From Sipunculus nudus (taxonomy: Eukaryota; Annelida; Sipuncula; Golfingiida; Sipunculidae), in assembly GCA_026874595.1 (NCBI GenBank), contig CM049315.1:68457916-68521915 (forward strand): a stretch of 64,000 nt of DNA, given 5' to 3'. Under the pieces are notes generated by a model that worked only from the letters and a program-made list of their open reading frames with translations, made no database searches and was not told the DNA's origin. Shown piece after piece: positions 2,719 to 63,993 of this stretch; within the stretch, counting starts at the first letter, position 1; each line of letters begins with the position of its first letter. Position numbers and translations under genes: made by a program.

Positions 2719-5531
2719 TTAAGACGTCTGTGCTTTCCTCAACTTCTGAAGCACCGCGGGTAAAGTGTCCATCTTCTGTCTCACCTCCAACGGAATAAAG
2801 TCATTCTCCTTAAAACTGTAAGAGACAGAAAGAGAGAATAAGATGTAAACCCAGATTTATATAAACTGTGAGCAAATAAATATGGCTAAATGAACTGAGA
2901 CATAGATTCTGGTATTGACAAAATGATTCTAATCAAGCTATTTTGTCTGATTTTAAGGTTTAATTATTTCTATGTTGGCTGTGGAGCTAATCGACTTGAA
3001 TATGATTATAGTCAATTTAAATACCTAGCTTCGCTGTGATATGCTAGGCTTGGTATTGAGCTTGTATTTGTCAAGATTTTTATATTATTTATATTATTAT
3101 ATTTAATATAAGTTATATTAGGGTTAAGGAAATACGTACCTAGCTGAGAATCCATTAGCACCCGTGTACTTGATGACCATGGGACTGGGTTGAAGTTGAA
3201 GTTCTGAACCGTCAACAAACTGGACATACACTTCCTTGTTGGACCACTGAGTGCCACAGCCGATACCAGGGACAAATACTTTACACAGGACCGTTGGTTC
3301 TACCAGACACCAATTGTTGCTGCTTGGTGACGATGAAGCAGACGATGGTGAAGGAGGCGCCCCCTGGTTTGGCGTGGATTCCGGAGACGCCGCCATGTTT
3401 GTAGGTGGATTGGATGACAAAGATGATGTCCTCGTTGAACAGCTGGTTTGTAGAGATGCTTTCTTTTCTAAGTTCGACGACTCTGTCCGAAGAATCGAAA
3501 CACTTGAAGCCGGAGCTGTGCACCTCGGATTTAAAGGAGGGCTGGCCTTGTTGGCAGGAGGACGGCTGCAAAAGTAAAGAGACCAGATGATTAGTCTGAG
3601 CATGCGTGATCACACCAAATTTGCGAATAATAATATTATCTTAATATTTTGTATTATTTGTCTTTACTGAGGTCAATAATAATTTACGCATTAAAAATAA
3701 ACACTAAGGGACAAGTCGGTATTCTAGTATCTTTAAATTAACTGGAACAAATTATTGTTAAAAATAGATACTATATCGGATGTTAACTTAACCTTTTACC
3801 AAATGTTGTATGTAGAAATCGCTTCGTTTAATCATTGTAAAAAAAATGTATACATCGGATAAACTCTGATTTTTTGCTAAGATTTTATAGAAATACTGTA
3901 ATGCTTGTCTCACCTTCCGATCACTACTGGGAAGCAGGTGGCATTTGATCTTGATCCTCCGTTCATCCCCATCGTCATCAGGGAGACGAGATTTAGACAT
4001 TTCTGACGATACTGAAAAGACAAAATAAATTTGTAATTGAAAGGTTAATTAAACAACCTTGCATATGCCAAACAGCGTTGAATAATATGCACTTGTATAT
4101 ATGATTCTTTTTTTATAGCAATTATTAAACGAGGAAGAAAATTTTAAGTACCGGTTATTTCAATAGGTCTAATTAAGATCTTTTATCAAGTTCAGTCTAA
4201 ATTAGTTGTAAATTCTTACCCTCATCGCATAACTGTAGATCTCCCTGTTCTTCGGGTCCAGTTGTTGGAAGCTGGTGTCAGTCTCCAGTGTGATAGAACC
4301 TCCGTTACTCTGAGTGATGATTGTGACGTCATCGCTGCTGCGGACCTTGACGCCGTCATAAAATGCCGCCTCAAAGTCACAGTTATCGTTCTCCATCAGC
4401 ATACACTTGGCTTTGTCCGTGTACATGGTCACTTTTGGTGTTCTCGACTTGACCAGTTCAACAAATCTGAAACATAAATCACAAATAATGTTACATTGCA
4501 AATGAACCAGAAAACAGAAAGAAAATAATAATTGTTTTTAACGAATTTTTAAGAAATTCGTAAGAAATCAACTTGTTTTCATGTCCTTTAAATATCAATA
4601 ATTCATTTTTTTTCCGTATTTTGAATATAATCACCTTGCCGCATGCTGGTACTTCTTCCAGTATTTCTGGGGCAGCCTGTCGTGGCTGAACTCTCTGACG
4701 GAGCCTGCTGCAGGGCTGGCTGGGCTGTCACTGACTGTCGTGTTGTCACACTGGGGCTGATAGACCTGGACCACGTGACCATCAAGGCTGATCTTCATCA
4801 CTTCTTTCACAATCTCCAGGTCCTGTTTATTTCTGAGAATCTCCAAATACACGCTGCAATCGTCTGTGATCGTCATCTGTAAAGGGAAAAAATGTGAATA
4901 TAGAAATGATTCTCAGTAACTATCGCATTTTATCAATTATCTATAGGTTTCCCAGTTTAGCTAAAGAACAAATCCAGTATCTATATTACAAATATTGATA
5001 AATAACTGTTTTCTTTAAATAGTACAAGAAACATAACAAGAATATATCGATGTCACGTTTCACACGTTTCCGATCATCTCGTGATGATAAATGTACAACC
5101 TTTGAAATAACCTTACATTTATAATGCAGAGAAAACTAGAACTTACCACAAGACTGCGAATTTTCTGACGAAAAGGCTCCAGGCGAAAAGACGTGAGAGG
5201 AAGAGTCGGACAATTGTCCACGTGACCATAGGTGACGTCATCCACTGAGGCGGAACACCTTCCTCCCTGGCTGTAACTGGATACCTGAATAAACATTGAA
5301 ATTAATTTATGGTGTATGGCTTTATGGAATAATTCAAATGTTACATGTTTCTGTACAGTATATGTACATAAATATGTCTTAAGTTCAACCAAATTATATA
5401 TTTTCATGTTCTGTCAACGTTATGGTTAAAATGCAAATAGGCTTTAATGAATGAATTAAAATGTGTTCTCAGTTAACTTGTATATTTTACATTTTTTTAA
5501 AGTTCAGACTTACCACATTTTGAACTCCCAT
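2719..5531 (-). CDS. PLK4-like polo-box protein without kinase domain (gene 1)
   Basis: Seven exons (high to low): 5531-5514, 5284-5147, 4876-4635, 4466-4220, 4011-3914, 3565-3140, 2815-2719. All introns are GT..AG and phases join cleanly, giving 421 aa. Residues about 30-133 match PLK4 polo box 1 (ends KYWKKYQHAAR), 134-247 polo box 2 (RFVELVKSRTPKVT, CDFEAAFYDGVKV, then CFPVVIGR), 248-338 a Ser/Pro linker, and 339-421 polo box 3 (VFVPGIGCGTQW, VQFVDGSEL). In PLK4, PB1-PB2 dimerise and dock on centriole scaffolds (CEP152/CEP192) and PB3 binds STIL. The N-terminal kinase and its phosphodegron are absent: an in-frame TAG lies 21 nt before the ATG and no kinase exon is seen upstream to 9 kb. 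Likely role (inference): scaffold, competitor or regulator of full PLK4. Expression is unproven. Confidence 0.87.
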
Positions 5532-5900
5532 TGTTGTGTGTTGTCTCGTCTAATGATTCTGCTAGACCTTCAGAATAAGATCAAGTTATATATAATTATA
5601 ACGGCTGAGGCGGGTAGTTATATATATATCCTTAACTGAGCTCTCGTCGAGAACATCTGATGGATTCTGAGGACCGTTCATTTTATTTATTCACATTAAA
5701 GTTAAGAAACATGTTTTACCTCGCCCGCCCCGACCCGTTTGATCTTGTTTTATAAATCACGTGACCTCTTGGGTTAATCAGTCGGGTGTATCGTTGTAGA
5801 GTAAGATATAATTAAGAGTAATCAGACCAGTCGCTGCGAGCGAGCAAGGACGGAGCAATCATCCTGAACGTAATTAGTGCACATGATAATGAGAACATAG
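5532..5900 (-). promoter_or_regulatory. Upstream region of gene 1
   Basis: Reads towards gene 1 on the minus strand. TATA-like stretches lie at about 5585-5600 and 5618-5630. An E-box CACGTGAC is at 5758-5765 (227 bp before the ATG) and ACGTAATTAGTG, with a homeodomain-type TAATTA core, at 5868-5879 (337 bp before). The same two motifs at matching spacing precede genes 2 and 4. That conservation is visible in the sequence; regulatory function is inference. Confidence 0.55.
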
Positions 5901-6145
5901 GCAATAATGATGATTAATGGTACTGCTGTACTATTTTCTCATACTTTTTGTTTTCACAGTATTTATTCAAAAATTGCTTATACATAAGGACTAGAGATAT
6001 AAAAATTTTAATTCTGTTCGCCATTACGTTTACATGGATCTGCTTCCTATATGCTCTCCACTTCTAGTATATATATATTCATCCAGGAAAAAATAAATCT
6101 CGAACGTGATAAAATTTAATTGAACTCTACAATTGAACTATCTAC

Positions 6146-6150
6146 GTATA

Positions 6151-6181
<31 letters not shown>

Positions 6182-6209
6182 ATATATACACAATATATAT
6201 ATATACATA

Positions 6210-6240
<31 letters not shown>

Positions 6241-6245
6241 TATAC
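6146..6245. repeat. TA dinucleotide microsatellite
   Basis: About 100 bp of interrupted TA repeats. The right copy has a shorter TA tract at 52565-52615 directly joined to what corresponds to 7310 here, so this tract marks a deletion or insertion breakpoint between copies. Confidence 0.9.
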
Positions 6246-7309
6246 CTAGGAAAAAAATTTAATCTCATTTTTTCATTTGGAGTTGAAAATTATCAAAATT
6301 AATCTCTGTAGCTTTAATTCGTATGAATACAACATTAGAATATTCCAATAATCTTAATTATTTTTGGATTTGAAGCGAATTGTTCCCAATGCAGTGGCAG
6401 TTCCTGAAATTCGAGAACGGGGGGCGCGAATGTATTTGGTTAACGGTTGATGGGTATTAAGCTTTATATATATATATATGCAATATTTTATTACCCATAT
6501 ATATGTACGTAAAATATTTTCATCTTATGAAGTTATAAAATTTTATGAATACATGTATATATGAATAAAATCTAAAGCCATGTTTATTTGGAAAGTTAAT
6601 TACAGGTACACCGGGGAGGGTATGGGAGTGCCCCCCCTCCCATATTGAGAACATGTTTAAATATACAATGTAAAGAGGACATTTTGAAGCATCTTTCACA
6701 AAAATATGAAGATTTTCTGTTCCTTATCTACTGTTCTCTTAAATGTCTTTGATGTCAGACTTTAGATGGCGGGGGTTCACGTGTAGCTGGCTATACAATA
6801 TTTATATTTCTTCAGAATTTGGATATTAATTGTCTAGTTCAAATATTCATCGTTATATATATCATATATTATAATCGTTAGTATCAGGTTAATATTGGGG
6901 GGGGGGGGGGGGTTCTGGATCCGCGACTGCATTTTATAGATTTAAACGAACAAATCAGATATAAATACTTTTAAATGTAATTTATAGGAACAAGATATCA
7001 GTATATACTATTAGGTATATTGTAATGATATAATTAATCTAATATACAATTTGTATTTTGGTATTTATTTATAAATCTGGAGCAATTTGATCAAAATGTT
7101 AACAATGTGGAGTAATTTGAAGAGCTCAAAGATTAATGTGAATACTACTGGTCATGCTGGACCAGGCTTTGTTCTTTCTATGAAGTGAGCAGCAGTTCAC
7201 TCACGCGTGAGATGACCAGTCATCCATACAGAGTTATATGAAAGGGGTATGCCGGCCTTGACCTGGAAATTTATTTAATACGCACGGGTGATCAAGTGCC
7301 CCGCCGAGA
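6246..7309. other. Segment present only in copy A
   Basis: Unassigned AT-rich DNA absent from the corresponding place in copy B (around 52615). It contains a pure G run at 6896-6912 and short fragments that look like dispersed repeats (near 6385-6440 and 6605-6650). No ORF is believable. It was either inserted here or deleted from copy B. Confidence 0.6.
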
Positions 7310-7859
7310 TCCCTAAAATATCAAACCCATCGCTCACACATACAAATGACTATAAATAAGGCAGGGTGCCAAACTAGTCTTCTATGTGTCAGTAAGAGTC
7401 ATCAACATCAAAACAGCAAAAAATAACACACAAGTTTCTTTTGGTCACAGTGCAGGGTTATAACTTCCATCCAAAATAAAAAAAAAAAAAAAAATACCAC
7501 AGACCACACACGTGAAAAAATAAACACCACACACACATGTACAGACACACGAATGCATCAATATAACGTAGTGTGCCAAATTGGGTGTCCATGTACCCGA
7601 CAAAGGTCACCAAACGTAAGACAGTGGAAATTAAACAACAAAATTGAAAGCGACACTAAAATAATTAGGTGCAATCCATTGATAATAAGAATGTACAAAT
7701 ACATGTACCTAAGTTACATCTACTAACCAGTATTTACTTAGGTGTGTTCCGTAAGTAACTTTGGTGATTTTTCCCTTATACTTAAACAAGATCACCAAGT
7801 AGTGTGACTAAAGCTGGTAATATGGACACCTCACTGTGGAAGAGACTATAATAATAATG

Positions 7860-7895
<36 letters not shown>

Positions 7896-8324
7896 TTAAT
7901 AAAAATAATTATAATTTAAAAAGATCCCCTTTTTTTAGCAAATTAGATAAAGATAAGTAATAATATCACTTGAACACATATAGAAAAGGCTCGAAGAAGT
8001 AGAAAAAAACACACGAACCAGAAAAATACGCAAGAACAATGCTAATTTTAAACTTTATTCTTACAAACAACAAATGGAATCTGCAGTACAATCCTCCATT
8101 TTATTCAAGAATACAAGCGGATAAAAGGATTACACACAATAGAAACTGACACGCGATTCACTTGTTTATTTCTGTTCAACAAGGTCAGTTGTACATTTCA
8201 GGCCACACCTGCTACAATGAAAATGACAAGTCGTTGTTGTGAACACCCAAAACAATAAATAAAGTCACGGAGATACCAGACATAGGTGTGACATTGGGTA
8301 TAATAACAATTTTATTGCATGATA
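7310..8324. other. Interval without recognised gene
   Basis: AT-rich, collinear with 52618-53560. Contains an AAT microsatellite at about 7850-7893 that is longer than its counterpart in copy B. Nothing else recognised. Confidence 0.5.
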
Positions 8325-8680
8325 TGATAATGGGTGGTCCATAGGTCATGAATCAAGGTGATGCCACCTTGTCACTCTTTGGCAATGTCTTTTGTTGCCA
8401 AATTCCAAAATGGCGCCTGTAAATAATTTAAAAAAATATGAGAATTATGTTTTAACTTAATGTGATTACAATTATATTTCATAAATTTCAAGATGGCGTT
8501 TGTAAATATTGAAAAAAATCATAGAATGGATGCAAATGAAGCAATACCCCGGTGTAATTACAATTTTTTTTCTAAAAATGGTAAACAGTAGCATGTAGAC
8601 CATGAATCAAGCGGGTGCTACTACGTCTTACGTGGGAATTCTTTGCTTTGGCGCCAAAATCCAAGATGGCCTCTATGAAA
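8325..8680. repeat. Degenerate direct repeat with ATGGCG motifs
   Basis: A cassette with CATGAATCAAG followed by an ATGGCGCC or GATGGCC motif occurs near 8345-8420 and again near 8605-8680, period about 255 bp, with a partial unit between (CAAGATGGCG at 8489-8498). These resemble YY1 sites. A perfect palindrome TTTGGCGCCAAA at 8647-8658 fits an E2F site. Also present in copy B. Confidence 0.55.
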
Positions 8681-9007
8681 CCCTAAAACAGCGTGTGGTG
8701 GTGGAACCTGATCTTTAAAATGGCAATTGATTGTTAAACAATTAAAACTGTAACGTTTAAACACTTTTGCTTCTTTCTACCGTTTATTGATTTTAATGGC
8801 CAAACAAAAAGCCGAACTTAGAAGAAAAAAAAAAAAAAAACACATAAAGACAAAAAAGTAACAGAATTCTTAAGCAGAAAAAAAAAAAAGAAATACTAAC
8901 TTTTAATATGTGTGTTTTCCGAAAGAACTGATAGCTGACTGATTCTGCCATGAACGATTTCAGTGTGACAAAATAATTGTGATATGGTAAACGTTTCGGG
9001 AGCTCTA

Positions 9008-9019
9008 TGCGCATGCGCA
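9008..9019. promoter_or_regulatory. NRF1-type palindrome
   Basis: TGCGCATGCGCA is a perfect palindrome equal to the consensus for nuclear respiratory factor 1 and is kept in copy B at 54295-54306. It sits downstream of the YY1/E2F-like cluster. The transcript it would drive was not identified. Confidence 0.4.
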
Positions 9020-9335
9020 ATTAGTAGTATGTGCCACACGGACAGTGTTGGTGGCATTTATTGATGCAGAATGGAACGTACAATCTTTTGTAACGATCGA
9101 CCATTCTATGGGAATGATTGTTCCTCCTGATCTGATCGAGTATTATAAATCTGTTTGTGTCTATAGGAATCATTTATTATCAAATTCCTTATTTAAAGGG
9201 ATTGTTATTATTTATAAAGTGTGTCAAGCCACGTCAATGTGGCAAATGTGTTTTCGGGTCCAAGGAAATGATGAATCAAGTTGTCATAACAAAATATATA
9301 TCGCCACCCATACTTTTCATTCTTCGTTCTCGCTT
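9020..9335. other. Open but unrecognised stretch
   Basis: A plus-strand reading frame stays open for roughly 100 codons up to 9374 and stays open in copy B despite a 6-bp length difference. It has no good ATG in copy A, no recognised domain and another open frame overlapping it. Copies this recent carry little evidence for coding. Confidence 0.2.
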
Positions 9336-9425
9336 TGCGTTATGAACATAAATTTTGTAATTGAGAAAAAATAATCAGATTCTGTAACACTAGGCAGCGT
9401 GAAATATCTAGGGGAATGAATAAAG
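9336..9425 (+). repeat. Left arm of 90-bp inverted repeat around gag-protease relic
   Basis: Runs from TGCGTTATGAAC to AATGAATAAAG and is nearly the reverse complement of 11456-11545. The two arms point inwards and flank the gag-protease pseudogene. Confidence 0.85.
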
Positions 9426-9471
9426 CATTGTTTACAAGATTTATCTCAGTGTTTTTTTGTTATTGTTTTAA

Positions 9472-11440
9472 CATTTGAACATGGCAGATTTCAAACCTGA
9501 GACATTTGTTGACGATCCCGACCCTGATCAACTCGGGCAGTTGACAAAGGAACAGTTGTTGCGTTTGGGACAACACTTGGGGCTACGTGTGAAAAGCCTG
9601 GTATCATTGCTAAAATCAAGCAAAGGTTTAATTGAAGAAGAAGAAATGGAAACATAAAAAATGACAGCCTTGCTATGCAGTTGGAATTAAAACAAATTAG
9701 AAATGCAAAATGAGCTAGAATTAAAAGAGAAAGAAAAAAAAATTGAGTTAAAACGACTGGAGTTATAAAGACTTAAACTAGAACATGGTCTACTTGCTGC
9801 CCCAACTCACCGTTTTGATGTTGCTAAACATATCAGACTTATCCCGCCTTTTCAAGAAAAAGAGGTTGATAAATATTTCTTACACTTTGAGAAGGTTGCT
9901 GAAAATTTAAAATGGCCTATGGAAAATTGGACTATGCTATTCTAAGTGTATTGACTGGCAAGGCCATAGAAATTTATACAGAGCTTTCAGTAGATGCCGC
10001 TGCTGACTATGACCTGGTTAAACGGTTAATCCTAAAAGGTTACGAGTTAGTTCCGGAGGCTTACCGCCAGTAATTCAGAAATTGGGAAAAGCGCAGAGAA
10101 CAGACCTACGTCGAATTTGCTAGGACAAAAGAGCAATTGTTTGATCGCTGGTGTAGTTCTAAAAATGTAATGAAAGATTATGACAATTTGCGCCAGTTGA
10201 TTTTGCGTGAAGAATTTAAGCGCTGCATAAAAGCAGATGTTAAAACTTTACTCGATGAGAAAAGTCCTGAAACACTTGACATTGCTGCTCAATTAGCTGA
10301 TGATTATTCATTAACACTCAGAATATCCTTTACTAGCAAATCAAACCAGTCATTCACAAACAAGAAAGTAAATCAGTATGGTGAAAGGAAGTTTAATGCG
10401 CAGTCGCCCAGTACTAGTAGTCCTGATAATCCAGCAAAGTCCATTGCTACACCTCAGTATACGTCAACTGTGTCTGGATCCAACCAAGGCCAGTCATTTT
10501 CAAAGAAAATCTGTAACAACTGCAAGAAGGAAGGTCATCTAAAATCTGACTGTTGAAAACTTGCGAATAAATCAAATAGAAAACCTTCTAATTTTGTTTC
10601 AAAATCTATAAATAGCATAGTACAAGAGCCAGGCCCTTTTCATGTAAATAAGGGGTACAACTCCTTTATTGACTCTACAAAAGAGTTTGATGCTACGGAG
10701 GCCAACGTGCCGTCTGACTCCAAAGAAGAATCCGTAGCTTGCGAGGTAAAAACCTCAGTTGATTCCTGCGAGGAATTTAATAAAGCTAGATCCTTTTAAG
10801 TTTCCTGCGAGGAGTATTCTCTGAATAAGGAAGTCCTTTTATGACCCCTGCGAGAGTATTTCAAATGAGGCCAGGTCATCTTATGACAAACAGAAGTTTG
10901 TTTCTGTTGAGGAAAATTCCTCTGTTGACTCCCATGAGGAGTGTGATGAAAAAAGGATGTAGATTCCTTAAATGACTCTGCAAAAGAGTTTATGACTGAC
11001 ACCTTCAATGTCAGTTCTTTGTTTAATGAAACTGAGGTAGTATCTGAAATGGAGTTATTTGACCCATTCATACATGATGGTTTTGTATCACTTTCAAGTG
11101 ATTTTTCAGACTCTACCCCTATTAGAATTTTGAGGGACACTGGTTCAGGCCAAACCCTCATGTTAGCAAACACTTTGCCATTTTCTAATAGGTCTTTTAC
11201 TGGTGCACATGCACTTGTTAATGTTGTGTTTTCCGACAAGCACACTTCAGTTCCGCTTCACAGTATACATTTAAAGTCAGATTTGATTTCTGGGAATATT
11301 ACTGTGGGCATAAGAACTACTTTACCCTTTTAGGGAATTCGGTTTCTGCTAGGCAATGATGTTGCCGGTGACAAAGTAGAGCCTGTACCAATAGTGACAG
11401 AAAAGCCGTATATGACCAAACTGGGTAATTTGTCAACAAA
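9472..11440 (+). pseudogene. Ty3/gypsy-type gag-protease relic
   Basis: Starts near an ATG at 9481. Frame pieces show a retrotransposon gag: a charged N-terminal part, a capsid-like region around 9800-10310 (RFDVAKHIRLIPPF, LTGKAIEIYTELS), a zinc knuckle CX2CX4HX4C at 10512-10553, then about 11100-11400 a retropepsin-like domain with an active-site DTG (RILRDTGSGQTL) and a flap-distal GND. Stops and frameshifts interrupt it: TAA after the YRQ motif, a frame slip around 9940, and TGA directly after the zinc knuckle; the first and last are shared with copy B. RT, RNase H and integrase are missing. The gag resembles that of the LTR element at 39-47 kb in layout but is clearly another family. Flanked by inverted rather than direct repeats. 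Confidence 0.82.
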
Positions 11441-11455
11441 AAAAAAAAATAACTT

Positions 11456-11545
11456 CTTTATTCATTCCCCTAGACATTTTACGCTGCCTATAGTGTTACA
11501 GAATCTGTTTTTTTTCTCAATTACAATATTTATGTTCATCACGCA
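11456..11545 (-). repeat. Right arm of 90-bp inverted repeat
   Basis: Near-perfect reverse complement of 9336-9425, starting just after an A-rich run at 11438-11449. Confidence 0.85.
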
Positions 11546-13649
11546 TACGTGATCTTTTGATATTAGGTTTCGTAACACACGGTGAAAGCGATCTGATTCC
11601 TGGTTCAATGTTCCGAAATCTCGAAATAACGAGGAATTTGTGCAAAATTTATACACCGTTTAATTAAAGACACACTCAAGGATCACATTTAAAAATAAAA
11701 AAAAATAACCAAACAAATGGAAATTTGGTCTAGAATCAGCATAATGTGATTGTTTACAGTCTGTAGTATTCAGAACCACAACGGTGTCGAAAGCTCTCAT
11801 CACAGAAACCAAATTCATCACTCATCAGCTGTTGTTTAAATATCACAAAACTCTCCAAAATGGGGGTACATTTGTATACGTGACATTAACATCCATAAAC
11901 CAATACTCAAACCATGAACAAAAATTGGGGCCTTCAAAATTTCACCAACTCCTCTCAGATTCCGTCCGTCTCTATATACGGAAAGCCGTCAAATCTGAAA
12001 ATTCAGTGACGTCATAATTATGCACATAGATCAAATCACCACCATGAAACAGTGATCTGATGGAAAAATTAAAAGTCCGCCATCTTGTTATCCATATAAC
12101 ACATACTTTTAAATTAACTTGATCGCACATCCAGATCATTATATCATGATTTAAAGCTCAAAATTACTTATCAAATAAACATATTAAATAAAAATATCTT
12201 TGCGTATAAAACCTGTATATATGCACAAAGTTGACTTTATTTCAGGTTCTAAATATACACCTTGTCAGTATTTTGAGCTCCTCTGACCATAAACCAAATC
12301 CAAATTACAAGAAAGCTACTACACAAGATCTCGACACTAGTCTGGATTTCCCTACCATAAATATAAATAATACAAAAACATATTTCGATAATGGTCTATA
12401 CCCCCAGTACATACTAGTAGTTGTTCTCCCATCACCCGCTGGCAGTATACATAACCCAAACACAATAATACACACACGGACACAAACACATAAAGGCAAC
12501 ACGAATTAATAACAAAACGTAAAATCGATGCCTTAATCGATTAAGTAACAGAACCTTTGCTGCTGGCTGATGAAGAAAACAAAAATCACTCTGTCATCAT
12601 TCAAATGAAGGTAGAGAGTAGTGCCAAACTGTCTGCATGCGGTCCGCTGTGGTGTTCAGGCCCTCATCACGGTGTGGGCGTGGTCACTGTCTGCATGCGG
12701 TCGGCTGTGGTGTTCAGGCCCTCATCACGGAGTGGGCGTGGTCACTGCTGCTCTGCTGGCTCGTCAGACTTCTCGTCGTGACCTCGCTGCTGGGTGTTCT
12801 GGAGCTAACCTGGGGAGGCGTCTTGGACCTCTTTGTGCTTGGCTTGCTGTGACATCTACAAATACTTTAACAAATTTCGTCCCTATTTTCGGAGGCTAAA
12901 GAACCTGAAAACAATCTATGTCTGGATTTTGTCGTTGGTGGGGGAGCTGATGTGGCCCGGTTTGCTTGAGTCTACGTGATCGGCTCCAGCCCCGACTCCA
13001 CTTTCTTGGAACCATATATCTAAACACAACAATGAATACGCTGACCTGACCTTCAGAAAATAACGCTCTCTGTGGTGATCCATACTCCTAAAAATAAATA
13101 TTCAACCTTTAAATTTTTGTTTACATTTTCATATCATTTTGAAAATGAAGGTAGATCCATGATTAAAATAAATGGTGTGAGTACAATATGTTTCACTAAG
13201 AAAGACATAGCTAAACACTTATGCGTGACAAATATTAGAGGCACTTTATTTAACCGTAGTCCCCTGTTAAAATCGATACTGGAAGTGTATTGTAGTAAAA
13301 GTACAATATAAATGACCTGCCTAATCTCTCGTCTGGTGGCGGTAACCGGCTCTTATTTTTGCTGCTTTGGCTCCTGGTCCTCAGCATTCTTTAGCGGAAA
13401 CTGGTGACACAAAGAACAGACCCCGGTGATGAAAAAACACATAAGCCGGCCCCTCTGTTCGGTCAGGGGAGTGTTTTATTGACGGCCACCAGGCCAACGG
13501 GTGCATTCCGAGGGACAGGGGAAGGGTGACATTTTCGAGTCGTACATGCGAGTCGTTTTTACATTGGAAGTTAAAAAATTGTATTTATCTTCGTTGCAGC
13601 GAAGAGATAATGTAAATGATGGCAATGGTAACGATAATGATGATAATAT
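11546..13649. other. Interval without recognised gene
   Basis: AT-rich with a GC-richer patch at 12620-12850. Small ORFs at 12231-12509 and 13072-13311 persist in copy B, but the copies are too alike for this to mean much. A palindrome CTTAATCGATTAAG lies at 12532-12545. Nothing matched a known family. Confidence 0.4.
12631..12746. repeat. 58-bp tandem repeat, two copies
   Basis: GTCTGCATGCGGTC starts at 12631 and again at 12689, followed in each by the same CTGTGGTGTTCAGGCCCTCA stretch. Also in copy B (60731 on), where the second copy has diverged more. Confidence 0.85.
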
Positions 13650-14120
13650 ATATTATTTTTGCTACTGCTTTTCTAAACATTTACTTAACATGTGTGCCAA
13701 GAATATCCAGTTAACAAGATCGTGATAATACTGGTCCGAATATTTTCCACACTGACTGCATTAATGGTGCTTGACAATTTTGGACTGTAAATTCTATTCA
13801 TATTTTTATTTATTTATTTTCATAATGCACATGGAGATCTTACCCTTGAGCTGTGATGAGGCAATTTTTATCTCCGCCAGTGGGGTAAGCGTTCATCCCC
13901 GCTCGTGTGTGTTTGTGTGTTTTTTTCACAACATATCTCAAACGATAATAAACGGAATCTAATGAGAAATGTTCAAAGTATTTCGGGAATGGCCCAATGA
14001 AAAATAGATTAGCTTTGGCGTGGATCCGGTACATCAACCAGATTCAGTATATATCTAGGTCATGTTTATGACCAAGGAATATTCACAAGTGTACATTCAC
14101 TTATGCAAGAACGAACCTGG
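13650..14120. repeat. Array-unit homology block
   Basis: Matches 26310-26780 in unit 2 (diverged) and about 61740-62210 in unit 3 (near identical). Non-coding. Confidence 0.7.
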
Positions 14121-14159
14121 GTAAATGGGCCGAATAAGTTAATGCAAAGTCGGGTTTGG

Positions 14160-14330
14160 TAACATGACCTTGAGAATAAATAAACCGGATGTATCATTGC
14201 AGAGTACGATATGATGATCAGTAATCAAATAACTATCGTCTAGTGAGCAATTAGAGAGTAATCATCCTGCACGTTATTAGTGTATGAATACATATACAGC
14301 AATTATTGATCATAATGACGCTTTCTTGGG
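14160..14330 (-). promoter_or_regulatory. Orphan copy of the PLK4-like upstream block
   Basis: Aligns by eye to the gene 1 upstream block at about 5770-5900: same order of GTATC.TTG.AGAGTA, AGTAATCA, ATCATCCTG.ACGT.ATTAGTG. The 12-mer at 14271-14282 has one change (ACGTTATTAGTG), while the counterpart at 62365-62376 is exact. No PLK4-like exon 1 or 2 follows it leftwards. Probably a relic of a lost copy or a separated control element. Confidence 0.5.
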
Positions 14331-14466
14331 TAAACACTCTATAATAGTCAGGGCCGTGCCCCCGTCCGAAACAACATGGAAGAAAACCCCCATGGGCGAG
14401 TCAGTCAAGGATAACTTGTGTAATAGATATATTTAAATTTTTTACCTGGCTTCTGCTATTCTGTTG

Positions 14467-19470: not shown

Positions 19471-19821
19471 GCTATAACTATGGAAGTAACATGACGATCA
19501 CTTTAATGGTCATGATACTAATGATATAGTATATATTATTTAATATTGGTTAAATAATATTTAATTCAAAAGGCAAGAATATTAGAAAATAAGCCATAGC
19601 CCTATATTATTAATTCATGTCCTCCTGAATATGCAAATAAACATTTCACATATTATTGTCTAATATTGATTTCTATATATGACGATATAGTTAATACATG
19701 TCCATGTATTATTGCCCGCCTTAATTTGTTAATAAGAATAGCTGAGATTAAAAAATATTTTTTCTTTTCTCCTTTTATAAACTGTTATATATTTTTACAT
19801 GTTTTACAATACTTTTAAAAC

Positions 19822-19878
<57 letters not shown>

Positions 19879-54294: not shown

Positions 54295-54618
54295 TGCGCA
54301 TGCGCAATAAGTCGTATGTGCCACACGGACAGTGTTGGTGGCATTTTTATTGATGCAGAATGGAACGTACAATCTTATGTAACGAACGACCATTCTATGG
54401 GAATGATTGTTCCTCCTGATCTGATCGAGTATTACAAATCTGTTTGTGTCTATAGGAATCATTTATTATCAAATTCCTTATTTAAAGGGATTGTTATTAT
54501 TTATAAAGTGTATCAAGCCACGTCAATGTGCTGTTTTCGGGTCCAAGGAAATGATGAATCAAGTTATCATAACAAAATATATATCGCCACCCATACTTTT
54601 CATTCTTCGTTCTCGCTT

Positions 54619-54707
54619 TGCGTTTTGAACATAAATTTTGTAATTGAGAAAAATAATCAGATTCTGTAACACTAGGCAGCGTGAAATGTCTAGGGGAATG
54701 AATAAAG
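54619..54707 (+). repeat. Left arm of inverted repeat, copy B
   Basis: Counterpart of 9336-9425; reverse complement of 59550-59640. Confidence 0.85.
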
Positions 54708-55494
54708 CATTGTTTACAAGATTTATCTCAGTGTTTTTTTGTTATTGTTTTAACATTTGAACATGGCAGATTTCAAACCTGAGACATTTGTTGACGATCC
54801 CGACCCTGTTGCGTTTAGGACAACACTTCGGGCTACGTGTGAAAAGCCTTGTATCATTGCTAAAATCATGCAAGATCTAGTTAGCAAAGGTTTAATTGAA
54901 GAAAAAGAAATGGAAACATAAAAAAATGACAGCCTTGCTATGCAGTTGGAATTTAAAAAAATTAGAAATGCAAAATGAGCTAGAATTAAAAGAGAAAGAA
55001 AAAGAAATTGAGTTAAAACGACTGGAGTTATAAAGACTTAAACTAGAACATGGTCTACTTGCTGCCCCAACTCACCGTTTTGATGTTGCTGAACATATCA
55101 GACTTATCCCACCTTTTCAAGAAAAAGAGGTTGATAAATATTTCTTACACTTTGAGAAGGTAGCTGAAAATTTAAAATGGCCTATGGAAAATTGGACTAT
55201 GCTATTCTCAGTGTATTGACTGGCAAGGCCATAGAAATTTATACAGAGCTTTCAGTAGAAGCCGCTGTTGACTATGACCTGGTTAAACGGTTAATCCTAA
55301 AAGGTTACGAGTTAGTTCCGGAGGCTTACCGCCAGTAATTAAGAAATTGGGAAAAGCGCAGAGAACAGACCTACGTCGAATTTGCTAGGACAAAAGAGCA
55401 GTTGTTTGATCGCTGGTGTAGTTCTAAAAATGTAATGAAAGATTATGACAATTTGCGCCAGTTGATTTTGCGTGAAGAATTTAAGCGCTCCATT

Positions 55495-58310
55495 GAAGAT
55501 AAATGCTTTTTTTTTCTTGAGTGGGTTACCTTTATGGACAAACTCTCCTTAGTGTCAGAGAGTGTATATGTGACAGGAGACCTAAATTTTCACACTGATG
55601 ATCCAGGCAATAGAGATGCTCAGCAGCTTGTCAGTCACCTAGATGCCCTTGGTTTTTATACAGCATGTCACTCAGCCCACACACAAAAGGGGTCATACAT
55701 TAGATGTGCTTATCACTCGGGAAGATGATCCTACCTTAATGGGTGTACCATCCATACTTGACCCATGCCTTGGGGATTCTGCAGGACATAACTGTAGTGA
55801 TGATTTGGCTGTGCTGTTTGGTGTAGACATAAAGAAACCAGGCTGTGTACGCAAGGAGGTCAGTTACAGAAAACTGCGCGCCATCAGTGTATATGATTTT
55901 CAGCATGATGCATCACTGTCCCCAGCCATCCATGACCTGGACAAGTCTCTTGACACCTTAGTGCAGGCATACAACACCACTCTGGCAAGTCTCATTGATA
56001 AGCATGCACCGCTTATCACCAAGCAGACAACCCTCAGGCCCCATGCTCCTTGGTATACCGAGGAGCTACGGGAGGAAAAGCACAAGAAAAGGAGTCTGTA
56101 CACCACCAGCTCTTCAAAGAACAGTGCAAGGCAGTAAATAGAAAGCTCCATCGGGCAAAGCAGGATTTCTATACCATCAAGATTTCTGAGTGCGAAATTT
56201 GTTTGCACTGGCCAGGAAGCTTATGGGTGAGTCTGACAAAGGGACTTTGCCTAACCACAGGTCGTCTAGAGAACTAGCTGATCGCTTTGGTGAGTTTTTC
56301 ATAAACAAAATTACTACCAAACGCAATAACATCAGCTTTGAGAGCTCAACAGCCTTCGATGTAGAAGCAGAGCCAGTCTATGATGGTGTGCCTCTCACAG
56401 AGTTCACTCCTGTTACAGAAGAGGAGGTACAGAGATTGGTCTCAAAAGCGCCTTGCAAGTCATGTGACCTTGACCCCCTCCCTACTTGGCTCATCAAGGA
56501 GTGCTCCACTCAGCTAACCCCACTGATCACCGCTATCATTAATAGATCCCTGACCACTTCTACAGTACCAGCATCCTTCAAGACAGCTCTAGTCAGACCA
56601 CTGCTCAAGAAGAAAGGGCTGGACCAGGACACTTTAAAAAACTACAGGCCTGTGTCGAACTTGCCATTTATTTCCAAGCTGATGGAGAAGGCAGTATCTA
56701 GTCGCATAGAGAACCACCTACAAAAATACCATCTCCACGATGACTTCCAGTCCGCATACCGCGTCGGTCACTCTACAGAGTCGGCACTGCTGAAGGTCCA
56801 GGCAGATATTATGGAGTCTCTTGACCATGGAAACTGTGTCGTTCTCGTTATGCTGGACCTCTCGGCAGCGTTCGACACTATTGACCATAACATCCTACTG
56901 GACCGCCTTCGTCACCGCTTTGGTATTACTTCACGAGCACTGGACTGGTTTCGCTCATACTTTGAGGGTAGGACACAATGTGTGGCCATAGGGGACGCCA
57001 AGTCAACTCCGCAGGTGTTGCAGTATGGTGTACCTCAAGGATCAGTGCTGGGGCCAAAGGCATATTGTATATATACCAGACCTGTTTCTGATATCATAAG
57101 GAACCATGGTTTCAAATATCACTGCTATGCAGATGATTCACAGGTCTACACTATGGCCAAACCATTAGAAAACTGGGATGATATATTCTCCCGAATCCAG
57201 GTGTTAGCGGAGGAAGTGAAGGGATGGATGAACAGGAATATGTTAAAGTTAAATCAAGATAAGACAGAGGTCATCATTTTCCACCCTAAGCAGTGCGAAA
57301 ATCTGTTCAGAGATTTAAGTGTTACCATTGCAAGTCACCGTATTGCCCCAGCTAAACAGGTCAAGAACCTTGGCCTGGTGCAGGATTGTCATCTCACCAT
57401 GGCATCCCAAATAAATGCCATTAGCAGGACCTGCTATTTTCAGCTGCGGAACATCGGTGCCATCCGGAAGTACATTACAGCAGATGCGTGCAGGACACTA
57501 GTTCAAGCCACTATCACATCGAGGCTGGACTATGCCAACTCTCTGCTATATGGAATACCACGCACCCTTATGAATCGCCTACTGAGAGTACAAAATGCTG
57601 CTGCCAGGCTTATCACAAGGACACGCAGAAGGGACCACATCTCACCTGTGATGGCCAGTCTTCATTGGCTTCCGGTGGAATACAGATGCAAGTTCAAGGT
57701 CCTGGTGTTCACATACCAAGCACTTGCAGGCATTGCTCCACAATACATCTGTGACCTTGTGCAACGCCGCCTACCTGCTCGGACTCTAAGATCCTCCTCA
57801 AAGTCCTTGCTTGTCGTACCAAAAACGCGGACTGTAACATATGGTGACCGTAGTTTTAAAGCGGCTGCACCAACACTTTGGAATGAACTTCCTGACATTT
57901 TAAGGGATGCACCATCGCTCTTGGCTTTCCGCAAAGGACTAAAAACCCATCTCTTTAAACAGGCACACACACTGATAAATAGCGCCAAATAGTGAGAGTG
58001 CGAGTCACTATGTTTTACTGCAGAGGACTTCATTTTTAATCAGCATTATAGCCATGAACTGAGTGGAATAATTACTTTTATCATCTCTTATCCTATTGCT
58101 TTTATCATATATTAATTTTTTACTTTAAATGGAGTTTCGGTTTTAACTTGGAGACTAGGTTTTTAAATCTAGTCTCTAAATGGATATTAGTGTTTTTTTT
58201 CAACTCTTTCATTTTACATGACTGCCTAATGTAAAGCGCTTTAGAGCGATAATCTTATTGGATAAAGCGCTATAAAAATGTTGTAATATAATAATATAAT
58301 AATAATAAAA
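55495..58310 (+). mobile_element. 5'-truncated CR1/L2-type LINE
   Basis: Absent from copy A, where gag runs uninterrupted at about 10230. Begins in the endonuclease domain (VTGDLNFH, then LDVLITR after a frame break near 55690), runs through RT and ends with a short UTR holding AAAGCGCTTTAGAGCG and GATAAAGCGCTATAAA, an L2/CR1-type 3' end, and an ATAATA repeat tail. No long target duplication is evident. 5' truncation is typical of target-primed reverse transcription. Confidence 0.9.
56190..57992 (+). CDS. LINE reverse transcriptase (ORF2 remnant)
   Basis: 600-codon frame with fingers NYRPVSNLPFISKLMEK (151-167), catalytic block LDLSAAFDTIDH (222-233), GVPQGSVLGP (280-289) and catalytic YADD (313-316), then the thumb and a C-terminal region typical of CR1/L2 elements (about 480-595, LHWLPVEYRCKFKVL). 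The frame itself is uninterrupted; the endonuclease part upstream is in other frames with breaks near 55690 and 56140, so the complete ORF2 is not open. Its first Met is internal, not the native start. The intact RT after insertion fits a recent event. Confidence 0.9.
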   Translation: MRNLFALARKLMGESDKGTLPNHRSSRELADRFGEFFINKITTKRNNISFESSTAFDVEAEPVYDGVPLTEFTPVTEEEVQRLVSKAPCKSCDLDPLPTWLIKECSTQLTPLITAIINRSLTTSTVPASFKTALVRPLLKKKGLDQDTLKNYRPVSNLPFISKLMEKAVSSRIENHLQKYHLHDDFQSAYRVGHSTESALLKVQADIMESLDHGNCVVLVMLDLSAAFDTIDHNILLDRLRHRFGITSRALDWFRSYFEGRTQCVAIGDAKSTPQVLQYGVPQGSVLGPKAYCIYTRPVSDIIRNHGFKYHCYADDSQVYTMAKPLENWDDIFSRIQVLAEEVKGWMNRNMLKLNQDKTEVIIFHPKQCENLFRDLSVTIASHRIAPAKQVKNLGLVQDCHLTMASQINAISRTCYFQLRNIGAIRKYITADACRTLVQATITSRLDYANSLLYGIPRTLMNRLLRVQNAAARLITRTRRRDHISPVMASLHWLPVEYRCKFKVLVFTYQALAGIAPQYICDLVQRRLPARTLRSSSKSLLVVPKTRTVTYGDRSFKAAAPTLWNELPDILRDAPSLLAFRKGLKTHLFKQAHTLINSAK

Positions 58311-59549
58311 GCAGATGTTAAAACTTTTCTTGATGAGAAAAGTACTGAAACACTTGGCATTGCTGCTCAATTAGCTGATGATTATTCATTAACACTCAGA
58401 ATATCCTTTACTAGCAAATCAAACCAGTCATTCACAAACAAGAAAGTAAATCAGTATGGTGAAAGGAAGTTTAAAGCGCAGTCACCCAGTACTAGTAGTC
58501 CTGATAATCCAGCAAAGTCCATTGCTACACCTCAGTATACGTCAACTGTGTCTGGATCCAACCAAGGCCAGTCATTTTCAAAGAAAATCTGTAATTACTG
58601 CAAGAAGGAAGGTCATCTAAATTCTGACTGTTGAAAACTTGCGAATAAAACAAATAGAAAACCTTCTAATTTTGTTTCAAAATCTCTGCATAGCATAGTA
58701 CAAGAGCCAGGCCCTTTTTATGTAAATAAGGGGTACAACTCCTTTATTGACTCTGCAAAAGAGTTTGATGCAACGGAGGCCAACGTGCCGTCTGACCCCA
58801 AAGAAGAATCCGTAGCTTGCGGGGTAAAAACCTCAGTTGATTCCTGCGAGGAATTTAATAAAGCTAGGTCCATTTAAGTCTCCTGCGAGGAGTATTCTCT
58901 GAATAAGGAAGTCCTTTTATGACCCTGCGAGAGTATTTCAAATGAGGCCAGGTCCTCTTATGACAAACAGAAGTTTGTTTCTGTTGAGGAAAATTCCTCT
59001 GTTGACTCCCATGAGGAGTGTGATGAAAAAAAGGATGTAGATTCCTTAAATGACTCTGCAAAAGAGTTTATGACTGACACCTTCAATGTCAGTTCTTTGT
59101 TTAATGAAACTGAGGTAGTATATTCCTCTCCTGACTCTGAAATGGAGTTATTTGAGCCATTCATACATGATGGTTTTGTATCACTTTCAAGTGATTTTTC
59201 AGACTCTACCCCTATTAGAATTTTGAGGGACACTGGTTCAGGCCAAACCCTCATGTTAGCAAACACTTTACCTTTTTCTAATAGGTCTTTTACTGGTGCA
59301 CATGCACTTGTTAATGTTGTGTTTTCCGACAAGCACACTTCAGTTCCGCTTCACAGTATACATTTAAAGTCAGATTTGATTTCTGGGAATATTACTGTGG
59401 GCATTAGAACTACTTTACCCTTTTAGGGAATTCGGTTTCTGCTAGGCAATGATGTTGCCGGTGACAAAGTACAGCCTGTACCATTAGTGACAGAAAAGCC
59501 GTATATGACCAAACTGGGTAATTTGTCAACAAAAAAAAAACAATAACTT

Positions 59550-59640
59550 CTTTATTCATTCCCCTAGACATTTTACGCTGCCTATAGTGTTACAGAATCT
59601 AATTTTTTTTCTCAATTACAATATTTATGTTCATCACGCA
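59550..59640 (-). repeat. Right arm of inverted repeat, copy B
   Basis: Counterpart of 11456-11545. Confidence 0.85.
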
Positions 59641-62259
59641 TACGTGATCTTTTGATATTAGGTTTCGTAACACACGGTGAAAGCGATCTGATTCCTGGTT
59701 CAATGTTCCGAAATCTCGAAATAACGAGGAATTTGTGCAAAATTTATACACCGTTTAATTAAAGACACACTCAAGGATCACATTTAAAACTAAAAAAAAA
59801 AAAAATAACTTAACAAACGGAAATTTGGCCTAGAATCAGCATAATGTGATTGTTTACAGTCTGTAGCATTCAGAGCTACAACGGTGTCGAAAGCTCTCAT
59901 CACAGAAACCAAATTCATCACTCATCAGCTGTTGTTTAAATATCACAAAACTCTCCAAAATTAGGGTACATTTGTAAACGTGACATTAACATCCATAAAC
60001 CAATACTCAAACCATGAACAAAAATTGGGGCCTTCAAAATTTCGCCAACTCCTCTCAGATTCCGTCCGTCTCTATATACGGAAAGCCGTCAAATCTGAAA
60101 ATTCAGTGACCTCATGATTATGCACATAGATCAAATATCCACCATGAAACAGTGATCCGATGGAAAAATTAAAAGTCCGCCATCTTGTTATCCATATAAC
60201 ACATACTTTTACATTAACTTGATCGCACATCCAGATCATTATATCATGATTTAAAGCTCAAAATTACTTATCAAATAAACATATTAAATAAAAATATCTT
60301 TGCGTATAAAACCTGTATATATGCACAAAGTTGACTTTATTTCAGGTTTTAAATATACACCTTGTCAGTATTTTGAGCTCCTCTGACCATAAACCAAATC
60401 CAAATTACAAGAAAGCTACTACACAAGATCTCGACACTAGTCTGCATTTCTCTACCATAAATATAAATAATACAAAAACATATTTCGATAATGGTCTATA
60501 CCCCCAGTACATACTAGTAGTTGTTCTCCCATCACCCGCTGGCAGTATACATAACATAAACACAATAATACACACACGGACACAAACACATAAAGGCAAC
60601 ACGAATTAATAACAAAACGAAAAATCGATGCCTTAATCGATTAAGTAACAGAACCTTTGCTGCTGGCTGATGAAGAAAACAAAAATCACTCTGTCATCAT
60701 TCAAATGAAGGTAGAGAGTAGTGCCAAACTGTCTGCATGCGGTCCGCTGTGGTGTTCAGGCCCTCATCACGGTGTGGGCCTGATCGCTGTCTGCATGCTG
60801 GTGGCTGTGGTGTTGAGGCCCTCAGCACGGAGTGGGCGTGGTCACTGCTGCTCTGCTGGCTCGTCCGACTTCTCGTCTTGAACTCGGTGCTGGGTGTTCT
60901 GGAGCTAACCTGGGGAGGCGTCTTGGACCTCTTTGTGCTTGGCTTGCTGTGACATCTACAAATACTTTAACATACTTCGTCCCTATTTTCGGAGGCTGAA
61001 AACAATCTATGTCTGAATTTTGTCGTTGGCGGGGGAGCTGATGTAGCCCGGTTTGCTTGAGTCTACGTGATCGGCTCCAGCCCCGACTCCACTTTCTTGG
61101 AACCATATATCTAAACACAACAATGAATACGCTGACCTGACCTTCAGAAAATAACGCTCTGTATGGTGATCCATACTCCTAAAAATAAATATTCAACCTT
61201 TAAATTTTTGTTTACATTTTCATATCATTTTGAAAATGAAGGTAAATCCATGATTAAAATAAATGGTGTGAGTACAATATGTTTCACTAAGAAAGACATA
61301 GCTAAACACTTATGCGTGACAAATATTAGAGGCACTTTATTTAACCGTAGTCCCCTGTTAAAATCGATACTGGAAGTGTATTGTAGTAAAAGTACAATAT
61401 AAATGACCTGCCTAATCTCTTGTCTGGTGGCGGTAACCGGCTCTTATTTTTGCTGCTTTGGCTCCTGGTCCTCAGCATTCTTTAGCGGAAACTGGTGACA
61501 CAAAGAACAGACCCCGGTGATGAAAAAACACATAAGCCGGCCCCTCTGTTCGGTCAGGGGAGTGTTTTATTGACGGCCACCAGGCCAACGGGTGCATTCC
61601 GAGGGACAGGGGAAGGGTGACATTTTCGAGTCGTACATGCGAGTCGTTTTTACATTGGAAGTTAAAAAATTGTATTTATCTTCGTTGCAGCGAAGAGATA
61701 ATGTAAATGATGGCAATGGTAACGATAATGATGATGATATATATATTATTTTTGCTACTGCTTTTCTAAACATTTACTTAACATGTGTGCCAAGAATATC
61801 CAGTTAACAAGATCGTGATAATACTGGTCCGAATATTTCCCACACTGACTGCATTAATGGTGCTTGACAATTTTGGACTGTAAATTCTATTCATATTTTT
61901 ATTTATTTATTTTCATAATGCACATGGCGATCTTACCCTTGAGCTGTGATGAGGCAATTTTTATCTCTGCCAGTGGGGTAAGCGTTCATCCCCGCTCGTG
62001 TGTGTTTGTGTGTTTTTTTTCACAACATATCTCAAACGATAATAAACGGAATCTAATGAGAAATGTTCAAAGTATTTCGGGAATGGCCCAATGAAAAATA
62101 GATTAGCTTTGGCGTGGATCCGGTACATCAACCAGATTCAGTATATATCTAGGTCATGTTTATGACCAAGGAATATTCACAAGTGTACATTCACTTATGC
62201 AAGAACGAATCTGGGTAAATGGGCCGAATAAGTTAATGCAAAGTCGGGTTTGGTAACAT
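59641..62259. other. Copy B counterpart of 11546-14159
   Basis: No gene recognised. The two-copy 58-bp repeat is at about 60731-60846 with more divergence between its copies. Confidence 0.5.
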
Positions 62260-62440
62260 GACCTTGAGAATAAATAAACCGGATGTATCATTGCAGAGTA
62301 CGATATGATGAACAGTAATCAAATAACTATCGTCTAGTGAGCAATTAGAGAGTAATCATCCTGCACGTAATTAGTGTATGAATTCATATACAGCAATTAT
62401 TGATCATAATGACGCTTTCTTGGGTAAACACTCTATAATA
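62260..62440 (-). promoter_or_regulatory. Orphan PLK4-like upstream block, copy B
   Basis: Counterpart of 14160-14330, with an exact ACGTAATTAGTG at 62365-62376. No PLK4-like exon follows on the minus strand. Confidence 0.45.
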
Positions 62441-62574
62441 GTCAGGGCCGTGCCCCCGTCCGAAACAACATGGAAGAAAACCCCCATGGGCGAGTCAGTC
62501 AAGGATAACTTGTGTAATTGATATATTTAAATTTTTTACCTGGCTTCTGCTATTCTGTTATGTTCTGTTATGCT

Positions 62575-62608
62575 TTTGACGGTTATTCCATGTTTCTTTC
62601 TCCTAATA

Positions 62609-62640
<32 letters not shown>

Positions 62641-63896
62641 TGTCAGACCAGTAGCATGTCTAGCTTTCTGATGAGGCCTACTATTTGGTTTGTCCATTCT
62701 TTGAGGATATAGAACGAAATATACTAAAGATCAAAATCAAAACGATTTTTCGAGGACCACTCTGGATACTAAGATGGAGAATACTCAGACCTAAAGTTAT
62801 GACTTATTTCCTGTTCAAACTCACCTTGTTTCAACTTATTTCCTTTACTAAGACCTATTTTGGTTTGAGATGATCGAGGGGGCTGTGGGTTAACATTGAT
62901 GCTCGTTGGGATACAGTGAATACATGAAGCTTACCTTTGAAATTTTTTGGGATGTGCCCTCTCTCTCTCTCTCACTCACTGGTTGAACACACATTTAAAA
63001 GATTTTTTTTTCTAATCTAGATATTCACCTAGTAACCTCGAATTTAAGAGCAGAGTTGTCTTTTGTCTCCGTGCCTGTCTCTCTCAGGTATTTTTCTCCC
63101 CCCCCCCCTCTCTCACACACACACATACACACACAATGCATGCAGTAGAATCATTAAAATCTTTTACACCGAGCTTTATTACAATTATGTGTACCTGTTT
63201 TTATGAGCCTGCAAACCGCACATGTATAGCAAATTTAGCAAGTCAAACACATTGCATAATCACGTTTTAAAATTTGACGGAAATTGGTATAAATGGTGGT
63301 AGAACTTGTAAGGCTTTTACAACAAGTAATCACAAACATCTCGGTCTCTTGTCATCATCATCACCACCATTATCATCATAATAAGACAATGAATAACATG
63401 CATATCACACTCTCTCCACAAGCTTTGAATGAGTCCATGTGTATATGTGCTCATTTCCTGAGAGAAGTCTTTGGCTGCATCCCAGAATTCCGTTCGGTTT
63501 CTCGGCTTCCACTTTTCAGTCTCCTCCGTCTCTGTGTATGTAGAGTTCTTGGTGCCCTTGACCGATCGATGGACGTGCATGTTCCTAATTGACTCCCGTC
63601 CTCTGAAACTCCTTTCTTGTTGGCGGCTTAGACCGTGGCAGCTTGTTATCAGCCTGTACCCTCAACCGCGTGTTGACGCAACGCCTGTCCTTCAACCTGT
63701 GTCAACAGTGTCAAGACTGACAGCTGTGTCAGATTGTGCCATCCGACAGACGAGTGGGTGGACCTTTGAGAACAGCTCTGTGAACTCCTGGGTGGAGGTC
63801 TGGGTTCTTATAGCTTGTCTGTAGCCATCCGTGTATACACAGATGGTCTGTAGCTATCCGTGTATTAGCTCAATATGAACCTACTTTGAATCAAGC
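62575..63896. repeat. 3' flank of gene 5
   Basis: Near-identical to 14467-15773, with CA/TA (62610-62640) and CT (62958-62975) microsatellites and two 29-bp units near 63823-63868. Confidence 0.75.
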
Positions 63897-63993
63897 TCAA
63901 GACGTCTGTGCTTCACTCAGTTTATGAAGAACTGCTGGTAGAACGTCCATTTTCTGTCTCACCTTTAGAGGGATATGATCATTTTCCTTGAAA
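63897..63993 (-). CDS. Last exon of a further PLK4-like gene (gene 5), partial
   Basis: Acceptor TTTCAG at 63994-63999, then 97 nt encoding the C-terminal part of polo box 3 (FKENDHIPLKVRQKMD...), ending QTS and TGA. Nearly identical to exon 7 of gene 2 but stopping three codons earlier, at the same point as gene 1. The remaining six exons lie beyond the right edge, so intactness cannot be judged. Confidence 0.85.

Follow-up and report, generated by a model that had tools for sequence, protein, structure and literature searches.

The stretch of DNA considered here (hereafter the window) is a segment of 64,000 nucleotides from the sipunculan Sipunculus nudus (contig CM049315.1, here C10; C10:68457916-68521915) which carries five minus-strand genes or relics related to the polo-box half of PLK4, that is, PB1, PB2, a linker and PB3, without a protein kinase domain. 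They belong to a larger array in the analysed genome (1.43 Gb, 153 contigs) whose members are grouped below into types A, B and C, and only genes 1 and 2 of the five are complete inside the window. Gene models were obtained with our own spliced protein-to-DNA aligner. The genes and associated features, with protein lengths in amino acids (aa), are as follows.

5531-2719, minus strand: gene 1, type A, 421 aa (spliced alignment, Pfam and PDB sequence matches)
5531-5514, 5284-5147, 4876-4635, 4466-4220, 4011-3914, 3565-3140 and 2815-2722, minus strand: coding exons of gene 1, with the stop codon at 2721-2719
Gene 1 protein, aa 35-139, 140-250, 251-338 and 339-421: PB1, PB2, linker and PB3, respectively
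5757-5765, minus strand: GTCACGTGA box, 234 bp upstream of the gene 1 ATG
19112-15774, minus strand: gene 2, type B, 399 aa (spliced alignment)
19112-19110, 18778-18641, 18276-18035, 17766-17520, 16807-16707, 16464-16099 and 15876-15774, minus strand: coding exons of gene 2, the last one including the stop codon
19352-19360, minus strand: GTCACGTGA box upstream of gene 2
About 34683-34108, minus strand: gene 3, a polo-box relic in which only portions of exons 3 and 4 remain, interrupted by a frameshift and a stop
51954-49147, minus strand: gene 4, type A, a duplicate of gene 1 that has lost the splice donor of exon 4 and carries a frameshift in exon 6
63993-63900, minus strand: gene 5 (locus L018), type B, last coding exon; the remaining exons lie past the window, to C10:68524817
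About C10:70.113-70.121 Mb, outside the window: the true PLK4, a single gene, ~70 kb from the last array copy

Gene 1 has seven coding exons with intron phases 0, 0, 2, 0, 2 and 2, every intron being GT-AG. The first exon of gene 2 reads ATG|GT, its five modelled introns are all GT-AG, and its frame runs for 396 aa to AQTS and then GA-stop, which gives 399 aa; the lengths of 421 and 399 aa proposed in the initial annotation for two complete spliced genes were both reproduced by spliced alignment. Gene 4, whose block is 94.9% identical to that of gene 1, is probably a pseudogene, and gene 5 is an intact duplicate of gene 2, including the part that lies outside the window. The DNA upstream of the gene 3 relic resembles that of gene 2 (34684-35466 vs 19365-20183). 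Comparison of the window with itself shows a tandem duplication (338-15883 vs 46771-64000) in blocks 92-97% identical, with an offset of 38.7 kb stretched to 46.4 kb by a 7.7-kb long terminal repeat (LTR) element.

The protein encoded by gene 1 matches Plk4_PB1 (PF18190, expectation value (E) 4e-31) and Plk4_PB2 (PF18409, E 4e-30), which are its sole Pfam matches at E<=0.01, none of them to a kinase family. It matches the sequences of solved PLK4 PB1-PB2 structures with E 3e-45, and its PB3 matches those of solved PLK4 PB3 chains with E 3e-11 (E 7e-10 using the whole protein). Twelve of its 13 PDB sequence matches are named PLK4 (one a chimera) and the other 'serine/threonine kinase'. Polo boxes of the PLK1-3 type were rejected on the basis of these Pfam matches, restricted to the two PLK4 families, and of PDB matches that are nearly all PLK4.

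The absence of a kinase extends to the array as a whole. An 80-aa exon of the PLK4 kinase, the one kinase exon searched genome-wide, occurs once in the genome, at C10:70118405-70118644 inside the true PLK4, and beside none of the array copies; ten other matches are 28-44% identical and none lies on C10, the next best (39% identical) being on another contig. The kinase motifs GRGGFACVY, VAIK, HRDLTLANLLL and DFGLA are found in exons of the same PLK4 locus (L037), so that the assembly contains one full-length PLK4 candidate with kinase exons, ~70 kb past the array; in its model the stretch between PB2 and PB3 is unreliable and the start codon lies outside. The beta-TrCP degron motif DSGxxS/T, found twice downstream of the kinase in the PLK4 frame, occurs in none of the array's 34 models, which represent 33 distinct copies. 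STIL is likewise represented at one place, C4:84.26 Mb, by three STIL_N matches within 5 kb.

The initial annotation had further held that these genes possess their own 5' ends and are not fragments of kinase genes, and this is borne out by their ATGs, by in-frame stops upstream of these and by the occurrence of the kinase exon only at PLK4; the candidate reading as kinase-gene fragments was rejected on the same evidence. The claim that such stops lie just before both start codons holds well for gene 1 (at -21, -33 and -57) and weakly for gene 2, with one at -105 only in the 120 bp inspected. A TATA-like sequence, also proposed at the outset, exists in 9 of 11 type A copies as TATATA, 63-70 bp ahead of the ATG; lying in AT-rich DNA, it is weak evidence for a promoter. 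At ~225-262 bp ahead of the ATG, 10 of 11 copies of type A and 4 of 11 of type B carry the GTCACGTGA box (for one of the 11, L004, the upstream stretch is too short to decide); the single type C copy inspected did not show it. A catalytic role of the array proteins is unlikely in the absence of a kinase.

At least five related genes or relics had been noticed in the window, and the family proves to be far larger. A genome-wide search with Pfam profiles returned 50 Plk4_PB2 and 48 Plk4_PB1 matches, one of each being PLK4 itself, with best E of 1.8e-23 for PLK4 and 3e-21 for array copies; chance is ruled out as an explanation because all of them pass Pfam's cut-off. Merged by place, the matches define at least 52 loci, namely the true PLK4 and at least 51 array loci, relics counted, and these totals are lower bounds as the search scores only the best candidates. 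Both PB1 and PB2 are present in 45 of the 51 array loci and one of the two in the remainder. The array on C10, of which the window is a part, comprises 44 loci between 68.45 and 70.04 Mb (~1.6 Mb), 30 on the minus strand followed by 14 on the plus strand; a cluster of six (58.97-59.03 Mb) and a single locus (39.61 Mb) lie on contig C16.

The integrity of the copies was assessed in 33 of the 51 loci, those that were modelled. Fifteen of them, eight of type A and seven of type B, are complete between the ATG and the stop codon and have GT-AG introns only, four of the eight type A genes being two near-identical pairs (L024/L031 and L025/L032). Another six are open and incomplete: L013 and L016 are clipped by the edge of the stretch read, L033 is without a normal last exon, and L022, L030 and L035 (C10:68.627, 69.020 and 69.407 Mb) represent the third and more divergent type, C, in which the recognised exons are open and the first exon was not found. 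The mean divergence of coding DNA among aligned copies is 6.8% within type A and 9.9% within type B. A neutral simulation left 24% (type A, 3.3% divergence), 13% (type B, 5%) and 11% (type A, 5%) of lineages stop-free, values that refer to single lineages evolving by substitutions alone, with shared ancestry not modelled, and that indels would reduce; plain decay does not readily account for the 15 intact copies.

Constraint was examined by domain as the ratio of nonsynonymous to synonymous change (dN/dS; Nei-Gojobori counts with codon bootstraps, within-type pairs being non-independent) in an alignment of six type A, seven type B and two type C genes, from which the near-duplicates L030, L031 and L032 and the damaged or incomplete copies were excluded. 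The linker served as an internal yardstick for the folded domains. Within type A dN/dS is 0.18 (0.08-0.35) for PB1, 0.40 (0.22-0.73) for PB2, 0.32 (0.16-0.66) for PB3 and 0.99 (0.61-1.70) for the linker; the corresponding values are 0.27, 0.53, 0.15 and 0.67 (0.45-1.07) within type B, 0.23, 0.32, 0.16 and 0.90 between A and B, and 0.32, 0.23, 0.36 and 0.52 (0.20-1.29) between the two type C copies. Purifying selection acts on the polo boxes (dN/dS 0.15-0.53) and less or not at all on the linker (0.5-1.0). For genes 1 and 2, a comparison suggested at the outset, dN/dS is 0.41 overall and not near 1, with 0.39 for PB1 (0.17-1.04, a bootstrap range that reaches beyond 1), 0.30 for PB2, 0.15 for PB3 and 0.86 for the linker. 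The short N-terminal part (2.44 within A, 0.82 within B) is either unconstrained or poorly resolved.

Several surfaces through which PLK4 acts are conserved in the same 15 aligned genes. PMC6823436 reports that human PLK4 autophosphorylates S698, S700, T704 and T707 (the PC3 sites), leading to a ring-to-dot transition and a switch from CEP152 to STIL binding, and that PLK4 phosphorylates purified PB1-PB2 in vitro. All 15 array genes, like the local PLK4, have S, T, T and T at these four positions; K711 and N717 are likewise kept in 15/15. When the pattern is relaxed so that T704 may also be Ile, 32 of 34 models show a PC3-like sequence, the exceptions being a relic and a model that starts downstream. 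At the tip of PB2, L752 and L761 remain hydrophobic and Y750 is replaced by I, F or V. The ten hydrophobic positions of human PB3 that contact STIL, as given in PMC4530586, are hydrophobic in all 15 genes, save that one type C copy has Ala at L955. CEP192 and CEP152 compete for one basic patch of PB1-PB2 (PMC7479937).

With regard to the origin of the family, types A, B and C share three introns with PLK4 in both position and phase (in phase 2 behind YQHAA, in phase 0 where the main PB2 exon ends, and in phase 2 ahead of the last exon). These common introns led to the rejection of a retrocopy origin and point to duplication at the DNA level of the 3' half of PLK4 followed by the acquisition of a new 5' end. 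All three types carry one extra intron inside PB1, where the frame of the local PLK4 is open, which could have been either gained by the array or lost by PLK4. Support in the tree is weak in places (41 for the grouping of type C with PLK4).

Seven pairs of stretches lying +393 or +474 kb apart were compared; five of them (L020/L028, L021/L029, L022/L030, L024/L031 and L025/L032) are 99.7-99.8% identical across 10 kb and could be either recent segmental duplications or false duplications of the assembly, and the other two consist of pieces of 97-99.4% identity plus one 87% piece. In a tree built outside exon 3 (31 sequences) plus-strand copies pair with minus-strand copies in mirrored order (69.697/69.446, 69.720/69.399, 69.732/69.386, 69.787/69.321 and 69.800/69.310 Mb), which puts the centre of an inverted duplication near 69.55-69.57 Mb. 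Exon 3 (e.g., window 4876-4635 and 18276-18035) behaves differently from the rest of the gene: its synonymous distances between types (A-B 0.23, A-C 0.24, B-C 0.22) are close to those within types A and B (0.21 and 0.20), versus 0.37 to saturation in other exons, and in the exon-3 tree (32 sequences) the types are intermixed, with one grouping of C and A supported at 92 and many nodes below 60. The simplest reading of this homogenisation across types of exon 3, which encodes the PB1 core, is repeated gene conversion centred there.

Taken together, these data suggest a family that would have arisen by partial DNA duplication of the neighbouring PLK4 without its kinase part, would have acquired its own 5' end, and would then have expanded through tandem, inverted and segmental duplication to 51 loci of three types, forming an ampliconic family. 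The intact copies would encode PB1-PB2-linker-PB3 proteins without catalytic activity which, most probably using the binding surfaces of PLK4, may pair with PLK4 or with one another through PB1-PB2, dock on scaffolds of the CEP192/CEP152 type, bind STIL through PB3 and be phosphorylated in trans by PLK4 at the PC3 sites. If expressed, such proteins, lacking kinase and degron, could outlast the self-destruction of PLK4 and compete with or dilute it at the mother centriole, so as to titrate or buffer PLK4 at centrioles with a strength set by gene dose. By a narrow balance of probability, we favour the view that the array proteins act on the PLK4 pathway in this manner, as partners or competitors by dose; their expression, stability, dimerisation, binding and effect on centrioles are predictions from DNA sequence. 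As far as sequence shows, the outcome could be either fewer centrioles (titration) or more (by shielding or co-clustering PLK4).

A number of observations weigh against this proposal. Twelve of the 33 modelled copies are damaged or relics (genes 3 and 4, L017, L020, L021, L027, L028, L029, L034, L039, L040 and L042), and one of them, L027, has Ile at the T704 position. V758 of the PB2 tip is replaced by Ser in all seven type B genes, and at G922 and K943, which contact STIL through the backbone, the side chains differ in 15/15 array genes (they differ in the local PLK4 too). Constraint on PB2 is weaker within types A (0.40) and B (0.53). Lastly, the polo boxes of the array are just 49-54% identical to those of the local PLK4, so that their function may have drifted, and at synonymous sites every exon compared is either very distant from PLK4 or saturated, from which it follows that the split was either old or fast.

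This divergence would also be expected if the family had been neofunctionalised, keeping the polo-box folds for other partners (e.g., in gametes or the early embryo) with no action on PLK4 or centrioles. Type-specific divergence between A and B (dN 0.44 in exon 4b, 0.25 in exon 5 and 1.19 in the linker), the 49-54% identity to PLK4, the multicopy organisation with its fast turnover and the precedent of a testis-biased, fast-evolving duplicate of Polo in Drosophila (PMC11708218) all fit such a history, which we nevertheless regard as rather unlikely given that the PC3 sites and the hydrophobic STIL-contact positions are conserved across all three types and that PB3 is the domain with the lowest dN/dS between A and B (0.16). 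Alternatively, the family may be non-functional and decaying, with duplication and conversion preserving its appearance and the measured constraint being a memory of a few functional ancestors. The 12 damaged copies, the homogenised exon 3 and the five pairs that are nearly identical across 10 kb would be explained in this way; however, 15 of 33 copies are intact despite mean coding divergences of 6.8% (A) and 9.9% (B), neutral substitution left only 11-24% of simulated single lineages stop-free (shared ancestry not modelled), and dN/dS varies by domain as fold constraint predicts, all of which makes decay unlikely.

A selfish ampliconic system, in which dose-dependent antagonists of PLK4 would bias transmission through sperm centrioles or meiosis and the array would act as driver and/or suppressor, is very unlikely in our estimation. 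The organisation of the array nonetheless resembles that of known dosage-driven amplicons, with tandem and inverted blocks, conversion between copies and damaged copies beside intact ones; such families, Stellate and Kindr among the examples, are covered by a review (PMC10618873). A version of this idea set in germ cells or the zygote, equally improbable, would see in the array an amplicon resembling those of drive or gamete competition, whose intact copies might poison or gate centriole assembly, whose PB1-core exon would be kept common by conversion and whose contested targets would be the single PLK4 and STIL. It is also conceivable that the family is an artefact of falsely duplicated haplotypes, or that its members are exons of longer genes which join other domains. 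The seven pairs at +393 or +474 kb, five of them 99.7-99.8% identical, are compatible with false duplication, but this would reduce the count and leave the family in place, the aligned copies differ on average by 6.8% (A) and 9.9% (B) and lie on both strands and on two contigs, genes 1 and 2 each start at an ATG of their own, preceded by in-frame stops, and have an upstream box in common, and the PLK4 kinase exon that was searched lies nowhere near any array copy; an artefact is thus extremely improbable.

The array genes resemble PLK4 (SAK) in the presence of PB1, PB2, linker and PB3, the PC3 phosphosites, the hydrophobic STIL-contact positions and three introns, and differ from it in the absence of the kinase, the L1 linker and DSGxxS/T as well as in the extra PB1 intron, the separate first exon of types A and B and their number (51 loci). 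Mammalian PLK5 is a polo-like kinase paralogue which works without an active kinase domain, groups with PLK1-3 and is single-copy; the array genes, in contrast, match Plk4_PB1 and Plk4_PB2 and are multicopy. Kinase-less polo-like proteins are therefore known as a kind, as PLK5 illustrates, whereas no equivalent of an amplified PLK4-type family was found: no published kinase-less PLK4 family or array appears among the listed titles and abstract openings from part of the open-licence PMC literature. PLK4 level controls centriole number. A genome in which the kinase-free half of PLK4 has multiplied to 51 loci, no fewer than 15 of which are intact, next to a single retained kinase gene would offer a natural experiment on how dominant-negative or buffering action controls centriole assembly. 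With it one can test whether centriole number is tuned by the stoichiometry of the polo boxes of PLK4 alone, and it exemplifies an ampliconic family derived from the half of a cell-cycle kinase that serves targeting. With Stellate/Su(Ste) and Kindr (PMC10618873) the array shares many copies, inverted blocks and gene conversion; unlike them, it is not known to have a transmission effect or sex linkage. Dpse-polo-dup1 of Drosophila pseudoobscura, which is testis-biased, is likewise a duplicate of a polo-family kinase under altered selection (PMC11708218).

The duplicated blocks of the window also contain repetitive and mobile sequences. The LTR retrotransposon at 39086-46770, inserted in one copy of the duplication, is bounded by LTRs of 1149 bp (TGTCAC...GTGACA) that are 99.74% identical, and its frame includes a SCAN-like gag, a CCHC knuckle and an integrase (H2C2, rve), with reverse-transcriptase motifs, read by eye, downstream of the integrase, an order which we take to be that of Gmr1-like elements. 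The insertion at 55493-58305 is missing from the other duplication copy and carries a 600-aa reverse transcriptase frame (RVT_1, E 4e-31), being probably a non-LTR element. Gag-like fragments are duplicated at 10074-10556 and 58287-58634, the former with a SCAN match and a zinc knuckle just under the cut-off, and a 58-bp tandem repeat is present in both copies of the duplication (window 12628-12751 and 60728-60859).

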